Below, piece after piece: positions 36,016-40,804 of a stretch of DNA of 64,000 nt (the first letter of the stretch is position 1; the number at the start of each line of letters is the position of its first letter). A program made the translations under genes and the position numbers. The stretch is from an uncultured SAR86 cluster bacterium (GTDB lineage: Bacteria > Pseudomonadota > Gammaproteobacteria > Magnimaribacterales > Magnimaribacteraceae): the NCBI GenBank assembly GCA_902574355.1, contig CACGNN010000003.1, positions 1 to 64,000 of the forward strand, read 5' to 3'. The notes beneath the pieces are model-generated. The model did not search any database and was not told the origin of the DNA. It saw only the letters and a list, made by a program, of their open reading frames with translations.

Positions 36016-37416
36016 ATGTACGACATTTTAATAATTGGAAGCGGACCTGCAGGATATGTTGCTGCAATAAGAGCTGCACAACTTGGAAAGAAAGTAGGGT
36101 GTATTGAGCAATCATCTATTGGTGGAACTTGCTTAAATATAGGCTGTATTCCATCAAAATCGTTACTCGATTCTTCGTACAAGCATTATCAATTGGAAGA
36201 CCAGTATTCAAAACATGGTATAGAAATAAAGGATGTAGGTATTGACTTGAAAAAGATGATGTCTAGGAAAGATGAAGTAGTAGGACAGCTTACTAATGGA
36301 GTAAGTGCATTATTTAAGTCAAATAAGATTGATCTGATTGAAGGTAAAGCAAAAATCCTTTCTGATATATCAATTGAAGTATTTAAAGACGGTGAAAGTC
36401 ATATTTATGAAACCAAGAATATCATTATTGCTAGTGGTTCTAGCCCTGCAGAATTAAATAATATCAACTTCTCAAGTAACATCGTCGATAGTGAGGGCGC
36501 TTTGAAGTTCGAAAAAATACCAAAACAATTAGTAGTTATTGGAGCAGGCATAATCGGGCTGGAATTAGGAAGTGTTTGGGCAAGATTAGGCTCCAAAGTA
36601 ACAATTTTGGAAGCTCAACAAGAGTTCTTGCCAATGTTGGATGCAAGGATGTCTAGACAAATTCTTAGAGAATTTAATAAACAAGGGTTAGATATAAGAT
36701 TTGGGTCTAACATTTTAGATATTTCAGATACAACGAGTGGTTTGGAAGTTAGGTTCCAAGAAAATGAAAAAGATATTAATCTGAAGGCTGAAAAAATAAT
36801 TATAGCAATAGGAAGAAAGCCTAATACTCAAGATTTATTCAATACTGATTTAGTTTCTATAGATGATAAAGGCTTCATCGAAGTCGATGAATATTGCCAG
36901 ACTAAGACTAAGAGCATATGGGCAATTGGAGATGCCGTGAGAGGACCAATGCTAGCTCATAAAGCTTCAGAAGAAGGAATTATGGTTTCGGAAAGAATAG
37001 CTGGTGAGAATTTTCTTATAAATTACGCACATATTCCTAATGTCATTTATACCCATCCAGAGGTTGCTTGGGTAGGTAAAAATGAAAAAGAACTTAAGAG
37101 TCTAGAGGTAGATTACAAATCTGGATCTTTCCCTTTTGCAGCTAGTGGAAGAGCTTTAGCATCTGGTGAGTCAACTGGGTCTGTTACCATCCATGCTGAT
37201 AATGAAACAGATCAAATATTAGGCATTCAGGTTTTTGGACCTTCTGCATCCGAGATTATGCACCAAGGCTTGATTGCAATGGATAATGAAATAACATCGG
37301 AAAAATTCAGTTCAACTATATTCAGTCACCCCACTGTCTCTGAGGCTCTTCACGAGGCGACACTTGCGATGAATCTAAAGGCTATTCATATTCAAAATAG
37401 AAAAAAGAAAAAGTAA
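36016..37416 (+). CDS. lpdA: Dihydrolipoyl dehydrogenase
   Basis: A 466-residue FAD/NAD disulfide oxidoreductase. FAD motif IGSGPAGYVAA (7-17), redox site GGTCLNIGCIPSK with Cys39 and Cys44, NAD motif VIGAGIIGLELGSVWARLG, and the C-terminal HPTVSEALHEA with the catalytic His-Glu. It reoxidises lipoamide of 2-oxoacid dehydrogenases or the glycine cleavage system. No E1 or E2 genes are near, so the partner complex is unknown. It is separated from flanking genes, which run in the other direction. Confidence 0.95.
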   Translation: MYDILIIGSGPAGYVAAIRAAQLGKKVGCIEQSSIGGTCLNIGCIPSKSLLDSSYKHYQLEDQYSKHGIEIKDVGIDLKKMMSRKDEVVGQLTNGVSALFKSNKIDLIEGKAKILSDISIEVFKDGESHIYETKNIIIASGSSPAELNNINFSSNIVDSEGALKFEKIPKQLVVIGAGIIGLELGSVWARLGSKVTILEAQQEFLPMLDARMSRQILREFNKQGLDIRFGSNILDISDTTSGLEVRFQENEKDINLKAEKIIIAIGRKPNTQDLFNTDLVSIDDKGFIEVDEYCQTKTKSIWAIGDAVRGPMLAHKASEEGIMVSERIAGENFLINYAHIPNVIYTHPEVAWVGKNEKELKSLEVDYKSGSFPFAASGRALASGESTGSVTIHADNETDQILGIQVFGPSASEIMHQGLIAMDNEITSEKFSSTIFSHPTVSEALHEATLAMNLKAIHIQNRKKKK

Positions 37417-37419
37417 CCC

Positions 37420-37737
37420 TTAGTCCTCTAAATAGGAGCAACAATAATCAAATATAGTTTGTACTTTTAGTTTAAAAGAAGAGTCTTTTGGCACCTCAAA
37501 AGACATACCCGTCTTCAATTCCTTCCAATTCTCCTCTCCAGAAATTAAAACTTCAATTTCACCAGATGTAATTTCCACTAATTCTTTCTGGCTGGTATTA
37601 AATTCATACTCACCAGGAAGCATAATTCCGAGGGTTTTTTTACTTCCATCTGCAAAAAGTACGTTTCTACTTGTTACATTTCCATCGAAATAAAAGTTAG
37701 CCTTTTTTTCTACACTAACATTTTCCAGCACGGTCAT
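37420..37737 (-). CDS. ppnP: Pyrimidine/purine nucleoside phosphorylase PpnP (cupin fold)
   Basis: A 105-residue cupin of the YaiE/PpnP family, which splits nucleosides with phosphate. The pattern matches closely: NVSVEKKANFYFDGNVTSR at the start, KKTLGIMLPGEYEFNT, VEITSGEIEVLIS, WKELKTGMSFEVPKDSSFKLKV and C-terminal DYCCSYL. Length is close to the E. coli protein (94). It is convergent with lpdA, three bases between the stops. Confidence 0.9.
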   Translation of the reverse strand: MTVLENVSVEKKANFYFDGNVTSRNVLFADGSKKTLGIMLPGEYEFNTSQKELVEITSGEIEVLISGEENWKELKTGMSFEVPKDSSFKLKVQTIFDYCCSYLED

Positions 37738-37747
37738 TCCTTCTTAT

Positions 37748-38152
37748 CTATCTAGCAATCAAGTTCACAACTGCAAATTCTTCAACTGTAGTTCCACATT
37801 TCTGCGCTACTTGGTCATAAAGATCAGACCATGTCTTATCATTTGCTTGCCAATCAAAAGCTTTTTCCATGGCCTCAATCGAGTCATGTAGGTCAACTGC
37901 TCCTATAGTTCCATCGGACCAAACTCCTGGTGATGAAGAGTAGGAGACAGGACTATTTGCTCTTTCGTAAGCGATTATTTTTTTTACCATCTCAATCGAT
38001 TCATCAACTTTTCCTGAGGGACATTCACCTTTATAAGTAACGATTACTTGACCAGGTTTCGCTACGGGCATTAGCATTTCATTCGAAGCATGATGCATAG
38101 CAAAAATACTAATTGAACTCATTAATAAAAGGGTTCCTAAAATATATCTCAT
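37748..38152 (-). CDS. Small secreted protein of unknown function
   Basis: A 134-residue protein with a signal peptide (MRYILGTLLLMSSISIFA). The mature part contains two Cys (GECPSG, KCGTT), one long helix (VDESIEMVKKIIAYERAN), then GVWSDGTIGAVDLHDSIEAMEKAFDW. The overall pattern of strand, helix, Trp-containing strand and helix is like the secreted protein at 35.5 kb. No family recognised. Ten bases separate it from ppnP. Confidence 0.6.
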   Translation of the reverse strand: MRYILGTLLLMSSISIFAMHHASNEMLMPVAKPGQVIVTYKGECPSGKVDESIEMVKKIIAYERANSPVSYSSSPGVWSDGTIGAVDLHDSIEAMEKAFDWQANDKTWSDLYDQVAQKCGTTVEEFAVVNLIAR

Positions 38153-38201
38153 ATCAACTCCTATAGTAATTTATCTAATCATAGCACCAAGAATTGAGTG
38201 T

Positions 38202-38423
38202 TTAGGGATAAATCTCATTCATCCTCTTGCAACTTACCCATTTCTTTCTAAGCTTATTTCCATAATTCGGGAAAGTTCTATCACACTTTTTCTTTTGAAT
38301 CTCTTCGACTTTATTCAATTTAGAATCGTCAGTATTTATAGGATTCAAGATTTGATCTTGAAAAGAAAAAGAATAAAGATTAAGCGAGGATAGAAAGCAT
38401 AATAAAACCAAAAATTTTTTCAT
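38202..38423 (-). CDS. Small secreted Cys-containing protein
   Basis: A 73-residue protein with a signal peptide (MKKFLVLLCFLSSLNLYSFS). The mature ~50 residues contain KKKCDRTFPNYGNKLRKKWVSCKRMNEIYP: basic, with two Cys that could form a disulfide. Unknown function. It is the last gene of the small-gene string and lies nine bases after the preceding small gene. Confidence 0.5.
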   Translation of the reverse strand: MKKFLVLLCFLSSLNLYSFSFQDQILNPINTDDSKLNKVEEIQKKKCDRTFPNYGNKLRKKWVSCKRMNEIYP

Positions 38424-38432
38424 AGATATATC

Positions 38433-38657
38433 CTAGTTTCGTTTATTTTCCTTTAGGTTATCGAATACTAAATCAACTTCTTTTTCTTCGAGACCTTCAC
38501 CAAATTCATTAATCAGCTGTGACATATCATCATATTCCTCTTCATCACCTATGAGAGATCTTTTACTAAATTCGTCCTCTGACATTAGTTGACGCATAGG
38601 TGGCTTGATTTCTTCAACACCTGCTCTCCAAAACAATTTAAGCAATTTTTTTATCAC
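38433..38657 (-). CDS. Small acidic protein in small-gene string
   Basis: A 74-residue soluble protein: short basic N-terminus (MIKKLLKLFWRAG), then acidic (MSEDEFSKRSLIGDEEEYDDMSQLI). It starts with GTG that overlaps the stop of the preceding 53-codon gene (TAGTG), which indicates translational coupling. No family recognised. Confidence 0.5.
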   Translation of the reverse strand: MIKKLLKLFWRAGVEEIKPPMRQLMSEDEFSKRSLIGDEEEYDDMSQLINEFGEGLEEKEVDLVFDNLKENKRN

Positions 38658-38818
38658 TATTCAAAAGGCTCCCAAAGCTCTTTAGGAAAACCTTTCTTTG
38701 ACCGCTCAGTTGAGTAACCTTTAAAGAAAATTTTCCTACCTTTCCTGTCTTTTTTTGTATCACCAATTTTATAAAGTTTTTTTGGCATAGACGTAAGATC
38801 ATTAATTAAAGTTTCCAT
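38657..38818 (-). CDS. 53-residue basic protein in small-gene string
   Basis: An ATG at 38818 opens a 53-codon frame ending in TAG at 38657. The product is basic and soluble, with MPKKLYKIGDTKKDRKGRK then FFKGYSTERSKKGFPKELW. It overlaps both neighbours (17 bases with the membrane gene before it, one base with the acidic gene after it), as in tightly packed operons. The composition looks coding, but no family is recognised. Confidence 0.5.
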   Translation of the reverse strand: METLINDLTSMPKKLYKIGDTKKDRKGRKIFFKGYSTERSKKGFPKELWEPFE

Positions 38819-39008
38819 TTGTTATGAGCAACCATACAAAAAAGCCACTCACTACAAATATAGAGATATAGACACTCCATTTATTTGACATTTGTCTTCT
38901 TGCTTTTTCAATATCTGGATTTCCTTCTTTATTAGAGTTATCGGATAAATTTCTAAACCATAATATTCCGATAAAAATTAATATAGCTAATAGAATTAAT
39001 TCAATCAT
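38802..39008 (-). CDS. Small two-span membrane protein
   Basis: A 68-residue protein with an N-terminal membrane helix (LILLAILIFIGILWF), a polar middle (NSNKEGNPDIEKARRQMSNKW) and a second helix (VYISIFVVSGFFVWLLI). Unknown function; part of the packed string of small genes on the minus strand. Confidence 0.5.
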   Translation of the reverse strand: MIELILLAILIFIGILWFRNLSDNSNKEGNPDIEKARRQMSNKWSVYISIFVVSGFFVWLLITNGNFN

Positions 39009-39014
39009 ATTTCT

Positions 39015-39086
39015 TTAGAGAAAGAGTTCAATTACAAGTCCAATTATAAGACAAATGCCTATTACCCAATTCACCCAGTTATTCAT
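39015..39086 (-). CDS. Possible 23-residue membrane micro-protein
   Basis: ATG at 39086 opens a 23-codon frame, almost entirely one membrane helix (MNNWVNWVIGICLIIGLVIE). It overlaps the preceding gene's stop by eight bases and ends six bases before the next gene. Position between coupled genes supports translation, but such short hydrophobic frames arise by chance. Confidence 0.3.
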   Translation of the reverse strand: MNNWVNWVIGICLIIGLVIELFL

Positions 39087-39264
39087 TCAAATTAGTATAT
39101 TCTTTTTTCTTTCTATAAATGTAGATGATTTCAGGAATACCTAAAAGATTAAAAATTAAAAAAAATAAAAAAGACTTTTTTTCATTTAGTTTGGATGCGA
39201 TCCAACAAGCATGGTATGTCCAATATACTTCCCAAGCAGCTAATATAACTAATAAAATTATCAA
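39079..39264 (-). CDS. Small two-span membrane protein (DUF5652-like)
   Basis: A 61-residue protein with two membrane helices and the pattern YWTYHACWIASKLNEKKSFLFFLIFNLLGIPEIIYIYR, which resembles DUF5652-type small membrane proteins (a Trp/Lys-rich loop, then FxxxxxxNxxGIxxIxY). The start is TTG and no clear ribosome binding site is seen. Function unknown. Confidence 0.5.
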   Translation of the reverse strand: MIILLVILAAWEVYWTYHACWIASKLNEKKSFLFFLIFNLLGIPEIIYIYRKKKEYTNLNE

Positions 39265-39312
39265 AATTTGAGGATTATTTTAGACATTAAAAATAATCTT
39301 AATTACTCTTTC

Positions 39313-39561
39313 TTAATCATTTATTTTCTTCCATGGTAGAAAGTGTATCTTCCCAACTAAGGTGTACCTTGCTAGCCAACCTAATCCAGAACAAGAAAAG
39401 AAAACAAATAAAGCAAACACAATTAAACCAAACCTTTGAATATTATATAGATTTGGAAGGACACTAATATAAAGCGCAGTGAGCGCAAAAAGAATTCCCG
39501 ATAGGAAACTTCCCCAATGAACAACTAAACTAAATCCTTTAAGTATATTTATCAGGGCCAT
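39313..39561 (-). CDS. Small membrane protein
   Basis: An 82-residue protein with two or three hydrophobic spans (VVHWGSFLSGILFALTALYI, FGLIVFALFVFFSCSGLGWLA). Begins with ATG, GAGG lies about ten bases before. Unknown family. Same strand and spacing as the other small genes here. Confidence 0.5.
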   Translation of the reverse strand: MALINILKGFSLVVHWGSFLSGILFALTALYISVLPNLYNIQRFGLIVFALFVFFSCSGLGWLARYTLVGKIHFLPWKKIND

Positions 39562-39626
39562 TTTTATTTATCCTCAAAATCTGTGGGGATTATCTGAGTA
39601 AATAAAACTTCACTAAGTTTTTTCAT

Positions 39627-40025
39627 CTAGAATAATCTCGAACTTTCAATATCCTGCAGTCTTATTTCTCTAGCCTCAGCAGATTCCTCAATAGTAATTC
39701 TTTTACATTGGAAAGTTTGCAAAGCGCATCCTGGACATTTTTTTAAAGTTACCTGACCTGTATTTCTATTGATAAGCGCATCTTCATTATTCACAACAAA
39801 TTTAATTTCGGTCGGCTTTATTTCGATACTTTTCAAAATAAGCGGAGTTTTGGGTTCATCATATCTCCAAGCTAGATGCTCATTTCTGACTAAATCAATT
39901 TGAAACCAATAAGTTTCTTCACATTCCAGTTGGATAGTTTCATCATCTGTTCTTACATCAGCCCAAGCATTAGCAGAGGTTATTAGGGCTAGCAAGATAA
40001 GTAGGAGGGTGGTTAGAGTTTTCAT
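39627..40025 (-). CDS. Secreted protein of unknown function in small-gene string
   Basis: A 132-residue protein with a clear signal peptide (LLLILLALITSANAWA). The mature domain is beta-rich with four Cys (LECEETYWFQ, KKCPGCALQTFQCKR), probably forming disulfides. It resembles no family I can name. It is the largest gene of the minus-strand small-gene string. Confidence 0.6.
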   Translation of the reverse strand: MKTLTTLLLILLALITSANAWADVRTDDETIQLECEETYWFQIDLVRNEHLAWRYDEPKTPLILKSIEIKPTEIKFVVNNEDALINRNTGQVTLKKCPGCALQTFQCKRITIEESAEAREIRLQDIESSRLF

Positions 40026-40052
40026 ATCTGCTCTCTTAATCTTTATACCAAG

Positions 40053-40193
40053 TTAGAGTGCGAATAAGCCCATAAAAAACATGACAATAGCGAAAGCAAT
40101 TGCAGCCTCCGGAACATCAACTCTCTCTTTTTTGTCTTTAAAGAAATAGAAACACCCGAAAGCAACTGAGAGGACTATTAAAAATATACCCAT
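40053..40193 (-). CDS. 46-residue two-span membrane protein
   Basis: ATG at 40193 opens a 46-codon frame: helix one (GIFLIVLSVAFGCFYFF), a charged loop (KDKKERVDVPE), helix two (AAIAFAIVMFFMGLFAL). Its ATG overlaps the stop of the 47-codon gene before it (TAATG), a sign of coupling. Unknown function. Confidence 0.5.
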   Translation of the reverse strand: MGIFLIVLSVAFGCFYFFKDKKERVDVPEAAIAFAIVMFFMGLFAL

Positions 40194-40336
40194 TAATCAA
40201 ACTCCTCTAGGTCATGTATCTGGAAATATTTTCTTTTCACTTTGTTATTCCTCCTGTGTTGGTGTCCTTTAATCCCATTAGAAACCTTAACCTCTTTATC
40301 TAGAACAAGGTCTCTAGGATTAGGTAAACTAGACAT
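40193..40336 (-). CDS. 47-residue basic protein at the head of the small-gene string
   Basis: ATG at 40336 opens a 47-codon frame with a soluble, basic middle (NGIKGHQHRRNNKVKRKYF) and acidic end (HDLEEFD). GTAGAG lies shortly before the start. It is coupled to the next gene by TAATG. No family recognised. Confidence 0.5.
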   Translation of the reverse strand: MSSLPNPRDLVLDKEVKVSNGIKGHQHRRNNKVKRKYFQIHDLEEFD

Positions 40337-40341
40337 GATTC

Positions 40342-40434
40342 TTACTCTACTACTTTACAACCCATTTTGGCTAAAAATGTTTGAGCATATGATATATATA
40401 GCGCAGGTGAGGTGGTAGGTTCATGCCCGGGGTC
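40342..40434 (-). other. Open frame without a normal start, upstream of the small-gene string
   Basis: On the minus strand a 30-codon frame runs from just after a TAA to a TAA at 40342. It encodes DPGHEPTTSPALYISYAQ followed by TFLAKMGCKVVE, with a coding-like composition unlike the AT-rich surroundings. The only ATG is seven codons from its end. It may be a decayed gene end, a frame entered by frameshift, or chance. The rest of 40337-40555 holds no gene that I can support. Confidence 0.3.
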
Positions 40435-40555
40435 TTATAGAGTTATGTTATTATTCGGCTTAAAGATGTAGCTCAGGGCAGAAAAGCAGTCAACTTCAAA
40501 GGTGTTTTGCAATGCAAATGCAATGAATAAAATACCTATAGCTCTGAAACGCAGT

Positions 40556-40633
40556 AGACACGTAGCTCAGTCTGGTTAGAGCACCACCTTGACATGGTGG
40601 GGGTCGGTGGTTCGAGTCCACTCGTGTCTACCA
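40556..40633 (+). tRNA. tRNA-Val (anticodon GAC)
   Basis: Acceptor AGACACG pairs with CGTGTCT; discriminator A and encoded CCA (40631-40633). D-arm GCTC...GAGC, anticodon stem CCACC/GGTGG with loop TTGACAT and GAC at 40591-40593; T-loop GTTCGAGTC. It decodes GUC/GUU. Confidence 0.97.
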
Positions 40634-40636
40634 AAC

Positions 40637-40804
40637 CTATTGCCCTTCTTCAGTTTCTTCCTCTTTATCTGATAATACACTTCCAACTACTTTAAGGGGA
40701 ACTTCAACCACTTTAACAGCTGTTGATACAGCTGTTGAGGTTAAACTAGCTACCGCACAACTTGATAAAGAAAATACCATGAAAATTAAAAAGAAAGATT
40801 TCAT
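40637..40804 (-). CDS. Small lipoprotein (55 residues)
   Basis: ATG at 40804 opens a 55-codon frame. It has a lipoprotein signal ending LSSC (Cys15), then a repetitive AVASLTSTAVSTAVKVVEVPLKVV stretch and an acidic tail. Very small lipoproteins with this ASxxSTAVxxxxKVV pattern are widespread in gammaproteobacteria, without known function. It ends four bases after tRNA-Val on the other strand. Confidence 0.65.
   Translation of the reverse strand: MKSFFLIFMVFSLSSCAVASLTSTAVSTAVKVVEVPLKVVGSVLSDKEEETEEGQ

Follow-up and report, generated by a model that had tools for sequence, protein, structure and literature searches.

Gene cassettes targeted to tRNA genes are already known in streamlined marine bacteria other than SAR86. 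For the additive flexible island of 'Candidatus Actinomarinales', the available sections of the report describe small cassettes at tRNA genes of a streamlined marine bacterium, where a portion of the tRNA forms direct repeats, and record intergeneric transfer (PMC7771536). In Methylophilaceae, the tRNA-repeat flexible genomic island fGI-2 and the tycheposon island fGI-3 are, according to the accessible part of that study, bordered by tRNA genes, carry repeats of tRNA fragments, and involve a tyrosine recombinase, a tycheposon being a cargo element of 4-200 kb with a tRNA border and a tyrosine recombinase (PMC10872708). Phage satellites of the phage-inducible chromosomal minimalist island (PICMI) and P4-like types are described in the accessible text as small marine integrative elements whose accessory hotspot holds restriction systems and unknown proteins (PMC10803314). 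Here we describe a string of about ten very small genes that lies beside the tRNA-Val(GAC) gene of an uncultured SAR86 cluster bacterium, in a stretch of 64,000 nucleotides (positions 1 to 64,000 of contig CACGNN010000003.1, assembly GCA_902574355.1) that is referred to below as the window.

The SAR86 locus differs from each of these systems. In 'Ca. Actinomarinales', the island is linked to the decoration of the envelope with sugars, whereas the SAR86 cargo consists of tiny membrane and secreted proteins, is common to three tRNA loci, and is accompanied by a common leader and by island-specific repeat motifs; neither a leader nor arm sites are mentioned in the available sections on the actinobacterial island (PMC7771536). 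The Methylophilaceae islands carry metabolic cargo and large tycheposons, with no mention of small-protein strings in the accessible part of the study (PMC10872708), and the block in the window, at ~2 kb and without a recombinase, falls outside the definition of a tycheposon. In contrast to phage satellites, the SAR86 string showed no link to packaging, a helper, or virions, and the word tRNA is absent from the main text of the PICMI paper (PMC10803314). Among the titles and opening lines of abstracts in the SAR86 literature on islands, integrases, the pangenome, hypervariable regions, and virion-encapsidated integrative mobile elements (VEIMEs), no description of such strings was found.

SAR86 bacteria are ubiquitous in surface oceans. 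They are described as resistant to cultivation in the accessible text of an earlier report (PMC3569297), and the route by which they gain variable genes is therefore hard to study. The source genome (G000) comprises 1.435 Mb in 34 contigs, the window lying on its contig 3, and was compared with 18 further genomes from the same genus and 16 from other genera of the family. Counts out of 35 genomes cover the same genus and the other genera, and counts out of 19 the same genus alone. The family searches ran over whole genomes and allowed a match at any locus.

Small-gene families at tRNA loci

In different SAR86 species, the same small-gene families recur at three tRNA loci and, rarely, at a fourth. 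The o68 gene (38802-39008; like the whole string, on the minus strand), which encodes a 68-aa protein with two transmembrane-like segments, has 14 matches in 14 of the 35 genomes, every one within the genus and every one at a tRNA locus: eight at tRNA-Val(GAC), four at tRNA-Phe, and two at tRNA-Val(TAC), the copies of G017 and G006 being assigned through flanking genes at contig ends. The named relatives with this family are SAR86 cluster bacteria or gammaproteobacterial metagenome-assembled genomes. On a core-gene tree pruned to the 14 carriers the locus of o68 switches at least four times, yet the gene remains single copy. Relatives of o82 (39313-39561; 82 aa, two transmembrane-like segments, HW...GK..PW family) were detected nine times in eight of the 19 genomes, and all nine lie at tRNA loci (five Val(GAC), two Val(TAC), one Phe assigned by its flank, and one tRNA-Ser).

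The basic, soluble 47-aa protein encoded by o47 (40193-40336), the usual first gene behind the leader described below, has 16 matches in 12 of the 35 genomes, within the genus alone. Fifteen of these are located at tRNA loci or in their flanks (four Val(GAC), eight Phe including some assigned by flank, one Val(TAC), one Ser, and one in the Phe flank on a contig that lacks the tRNA itself). The o61 gene (39079-39264; TTG start codon uncertain) encodes a DUF5652 membrane protein (Pfam PF18893, E-value 1.8e-10, 40.8 bits against a cut-off of 23.4), with 13 matches in the genus (seven Val(GAC), five Phe, and a further one whose contig has the neighbours of the Phe locus but no tRNA) and seven more in other genera of the SAR86 family. 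DUF5652 is a family of unknown function, and no paper naming it was found in a literature search. The six matches of o132 (39627-40025) among the 35 genomes comprise five at Val(GAC) and one at Val(TAC), and all ten matches of o74 (38433-38657; acidic, soluble) in the same set are at tRNA-Val(GAC). When all open reading frames (ORFs) called at these loci were clustered by single linkage, a procedure known to have merged one family, 17 ORF families with a median length of at most 150 aa proved to be shared by at least two of the three tRNA loci.

Copies of o46 (40053-40193; 46 aa, two transmembrane-like segments) at the tRNA-Phe locus of G003 and G017 are 93% and 89% identical to the window protein in amino acid sequence. 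The proportion of synonymous differences (pS) in o46 was 0.21 for G003 and 0.17 for G017, compared with at least 0.47 for the other genes among the families listed (at most 14 per genome), save for a spurious 20-codon ORF. Such low values for o46 show recent transfer between distant species.

tRNA genes as integration sites and paired repeats at island ends

The tRNA-Val reported beside the string was confirmed by ARAGORN as tRNA-Val(GAC) at 40556-40633 on the plus strand, the probable target gene of the elements. In relatives, nucleotides 31-78 of this tRNA are duplicated in G001, G007, and G013, and nucleotides 1-43 are also duplicated in G007; an intact tRNA with a displaced fragment at the island borders was found at Val(GAC) in all three genomes. 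Similarly, tRNA-Phe is duplicated from nucleotide 27 or 32 to 76 in G001, G004, G014, and G017, and nucleotides 1-41 of tRNA-Val(TAC) in G000, G013, G014, and G017. Tyrosine integrases (PF00589) are encoded in the islands of G007 and G004 and in the Val(TAC) island of G013; the scan covered part of the island ORFs, and three of the islands scanned were positive. The cargo of related islands includes AlwI-, SinI-, TdeIII-, and HpaII-type restriction enzymes, DNA methylases, a Fic protein, helicases, and the PADLOC candidate PDC-S02.

Arm-type sites of integrases carry a motif that is alike at both ends of an element and differs between elements. In 19.9 kb of G007, TACGGCA occurs four times as two pairs with an 11-bp period, one between the tRNA and o47 and the other between the integrase and the displaced tRNA half. 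The window has a CATTGCA direct-repeat pair of period 11 on the minus strand (40508-40525, with repeats at 40508 and 40519), ~30 nt from the 5' end of the tRNA and at the same position as the GTACGGCA pair of the G007 island; G008 also has a repeat pair at this position. The motif agrees at both ends of one island and differs between islands (AGTGGTATA in G013, AAAGGGACACA in G007, GCAGT pairs recognised by eye at Val(TAC) of G013, and a looser match in G001). Among 114 flanks of tRNA copies, exact 7-mers were present at period 11 in 17 (1.5 expected) and at period 12 in 15 (1.3 expected), with 1, 1, and 0 at periods 9, 10, and 13, the expectation being taken from the 64-kb window and not from composition-matched flanks. 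This survey excluded the duplicate locus L034 and tRNA matches of another tRNA type. Judged by its sequence and its place near the core, the repeat pair of the window is a putative arm-type site.

The repeat pair lies in a stretch close to the window tRNA that matches the end of the complete G007 island over 155 bp at 88% identity. The window retains one element end, consisting of the repeat pair, the leader, and then o47, with no integrase end. In G009, o61 directly follows the tRNA, which gives a junction without the o47-to-o82 block, and a sequence closely similar to this junction comes after the displaced tRNA half in G007.

A leader shared by different first genes

Approximately 64 bp up to the start codon are common to four kinds of first gene; in the window this leader occupies 40337-40401 on the minus strand and ends at the start codon of o47. 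The leader precedes o47 in six copies, a family of 74-82 aa membrane proteins in three, and a 73-aa protein in one, while a second copy (83%) is located inside one string of G003, before an 89-aa protein. Eleven strong copies were detected in the 19 genomes, seven at tRNA-Phe (one recognised by a tRNA fragment) and four at tRNA-Val(GAC). With at most one mismatch, the 3' motif of the leader gave 11 matches in the 19 genomes, ten of them at Phe, Val(GAC), or Val(TAC), compared with a single match for the reversed control. The alignment of the intervals between tRNA and leader took in nine of 12 intervals. In another genus of the family, a related leader lies 126 bp from the 5' end of tRNA-Val(GAC) with an ATG close behind, and another leader fragment is present near tRNA-Glu of the same genome.

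Two candidate roles for the leader were rejected. A structured RNA leader found no backing in fold z-scores (-0.95 and -0.79) or in Rfam, which has no family there, and no consensus sigma-70 promoter was listed in the leader, the region having fewer than its shuffles. An Rfam match to HPnc0260 at 40595-40749 on the minus strand scored above the gathering threshold and overlaps tRNA-Val in antisense; it is probably spurious.

Coding status and arrangement of the frames

The original prediction placed about ten short minus-strand frames within 2.1 kb at 38202-40434. Each of the eleven frames was found, at 38202-40336, and ten of them are real, intact genes under purifying selection, as borne out by the synteny and dN/dS (ratio of nonsynonymous to synonymous substitution rates) comparisons that had been proposed as checks. 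By tblastn of the window ORFs on the loci of relatives, frames and order are kept in G013, G007, G009, G010, G012, and G006, and in part in G011 (contig end) and G014; as many as eight other genomes of the genus thus carry the orthologues in matching order. Pairwise dN/dS by the method of Nei and Gojobori (NG86) was 0.04-0.42 for the ten frames, save for one o23 pair at 0.60, and 0.07-0.09 for the core gene Ppnp next to the string. The ranges were 0.04-0.33 for o47, 0.17-0.27 for o82, 0.11-0.60 for o23, 0.11-0.26 for o68, 0.15-0.40 for o53, 0.08-0.36 for o74, and 0.17-0.25 for o73. The 20-codon frame at 39564-39626 (minus strand) lacked synonymous changes in two comparisons out of three and had a dN/dS of 1.4 in the remaining one; it shows no sign of purifying selection and is therefore not supported as a gene.

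The described coupling was likewise observed: TAATG joins o47 and o46 at 40193, TAGTG joins o53 and o74 at 38657, and o61 overlaps by 8 nt with o23 (39015-39086), a 23-aa single-span peptide gene that sits between o61 and o68 in relatives. As the frames were called, o68 and o53 (38657-38818; basic, soluble) overlap by 17 nt, which probably reflects too early a start for o53, because relatives conserve the protein from an ATG near 38788; this start would give 43 aa and abolish the overlap. A membrane or secreted majority, also predicted, was found in that seven of the ten supported products (o46, o132, o82, o61, o23, o68, and the secreted o73 at 38202-38423) have a transmembrane-like or signal segment, and none was seen in o47, o53, and o74. 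Searches of Pfam, PADLOC, PHROGs, and NCBIfam with the window proteins returned weak matches alone, except for o61, so that the statement that no family explains the set holds for all the other genes but fails for this DUF5652 protein. The suggestion of one small membrane-associated system was not upheld, since the string falls into at least two blocks that are distributed independently (o47-o46, o132-o82, o61-o23-o68, and o53-o74-o73). Beyond o73, the secreted protein gene o134 (37748-38152, minus strand) forms a stable flank of the hotspot and adjoins lpd or tRNA-Val in divergent relatives too.

The 132-aa product of o132 is secreted and beta-rich. Its predicted model reached a predicted local distance difference test (pLDDT) score of 82, and a fold assignment was abandoned, with no significant match in the PDB (best E-value 0.17). 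Secreted proteins at these loci have signal-peptide DNA in common and different mature parts (39966-40025 in the window, and relatives), and the signal peptide of o132 differs between G000 and G010, G012, and G013, as if swapped. The ORF cluster F8 was not used for o132, because unlike proteins had been merged in it via shared signal peptides.

Origin of the string and alternative explanations

We consider it probable that the string is cargo of tRNA-targeting tyrosine-integrase elements that arrived beside tRNA-Val(GAC) in at least two events. The genes from o61 to o73 would form the older block and those from o47 to o82 a younger one in which the tRNA-proximal element end is preserved. The leader may act as the promoter and start region of the tRNA-proximal gene row of the element. 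The integrase end would have been deleted in the lineage of the window, and the row would persist as resident genes maintained by selection; with this end gone, the block is probably fixed. Islands without an integrase may have been moved in trans.

Several observations weigh against this origin. The window has the intact tRNA alone, with no second tRNA fragment in 37401-40540, and a second repeat pair was looked for and not found, so no complete element is delimited there; moreover, the window repeat is a mere 7 bp. A hidden degenerate tRNA copy inside the string was considered and rejected, the alignment scores lying within the range of 50 shuffles, and a Pfam scan of the string proteins revealed no integrase. 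Four of the 15 period-12 matches in the repeat survey are coding repeats of an adjoining lipoprotein gene. One o47 copy (G018:C51) has no tRNA within the 11.6 kb fetched around it, G003 retains o47 merely as a broken fragment, and none of the three genomes of other genera that were examined has a tRNA near its o61 relative. Finally, neither o68, o47, o82, the G007 integrase, nor the exact leader has a match in IMG/VR, a phage collection has none for o68, and a phage origin was rejected.

An ordinary operon for small, lineage-specific envelope proteins, inherited vertically, adjacent to the tRNA by chance, and with nothing mobile, would agree with the low dN/dS, with the conserved order of the six genes from o61 to o73 in relatives, and with the occurrence of o74 at the tRNA-Val(GAC) locus alone. 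However, o68, o61, o82, o47, and o46 are found at other tRNA loci in other species, o46 moved recently, and a repeat pair and a leader mark the tRNA boundary; the relocations among tRNA loci largely refute this explanation, which we regard as very unlikely. The original prediction also raised a tRNA-adjacent island that had decayed to a remnant. Its island part stands, given the element end and the families that move among tRNA loci, but decay into pseudogenes is hardly credible: although the integrase end is absent from the window and one relative has the broken o47, the frames are intact and constrained, the dN/dS values contradicting decay for ten of the eleven.

Short membrane proteins in coupled pairs, together with the restriction enzymes, DNA methylases, Fic protein, and PDC-S02 of related islands, could indicate a dedicated anti-phage or toxin-antitoxin micro-protein system. 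This seems unlikely, as PADLOC gave no match for the ten window proteins save a partial one for o132 at an E-value of 0.011, the blocks are distributed separately, and o61 occurs in other genera too. Integron cassette arrays, like the SAR86 string, place a fixed leader before changing small genes, and the leader could accordingly be a recombination point behind which new first genes are swapped under a fixed promoter. The sharp edge of the leader before four kinds of first gene, its second, 83% copy inside one string, and the related leader 126 bp from tRNA-Val(GAC) in another genus are in line with such a platform. In contrast to integrons, the SAR86 target is a tRNA gene and the integrases encountered are of the phage type alone, no search having been aimed at an integron integrase or attC; homologous recombination at a conserved promoter would, moreover, look alike. 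We judge an integron-like platform improbable and retain the cargo of tRNA-targeting elements as the preferred explanation.

The role of this cargo can be addressed tentatively. As a guess, it might serve phage exclusion at the envelope, through accessory proteins that change how phages enter or superinfect, because complete islands carry restriction systems beside such proteins. The leader and arm sites by tRNA genes could conceivably be landing pads of a distributed SAR86 system for the exchange of small proteins. Speculatively, trans-acting integrases with diverging arm motifs may swap gene rows between loci and species within such a system, which might perhaps parallel the restriction cargo at the level of the envelope. 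As short signatures, the arm repeats, tRNA cores, and leader can be counted in metagenomes, so that the movement of elements and the turnover of small proteins become measurable, and unannotated genes of 40-130 aa become defined families with a likely mode of spread.

Additional small elements and element proteins

Some islands consist of a single gene. A mini-island at tRNA-Val(TAC), located on contig 3 of G000 outside the window (L123 5899-7563), comprises a tRNA fragment of nucleotides 1-41, a 431-aa trypsin-like protease, and the intact tRNA, with no integrase between. Two other SAR86 elements (L033 15089-16330 and L054 8244-9629) encode a protein of 413-461 aa that matches phrog_4756, of unknown function, and has distant, weakly matching relatives among large phages of Vibrio, Aeromonas, and Klebsiella; the fold of the 413-aa form was not used, since the pLDDT of its model was 48. 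In G017 (L136 1924-2265), a second tRNA 3' half lies within ~220 bp of tRNA-Phe, with paired repeats and no large gene, and this arrangement is a nearly empty element.

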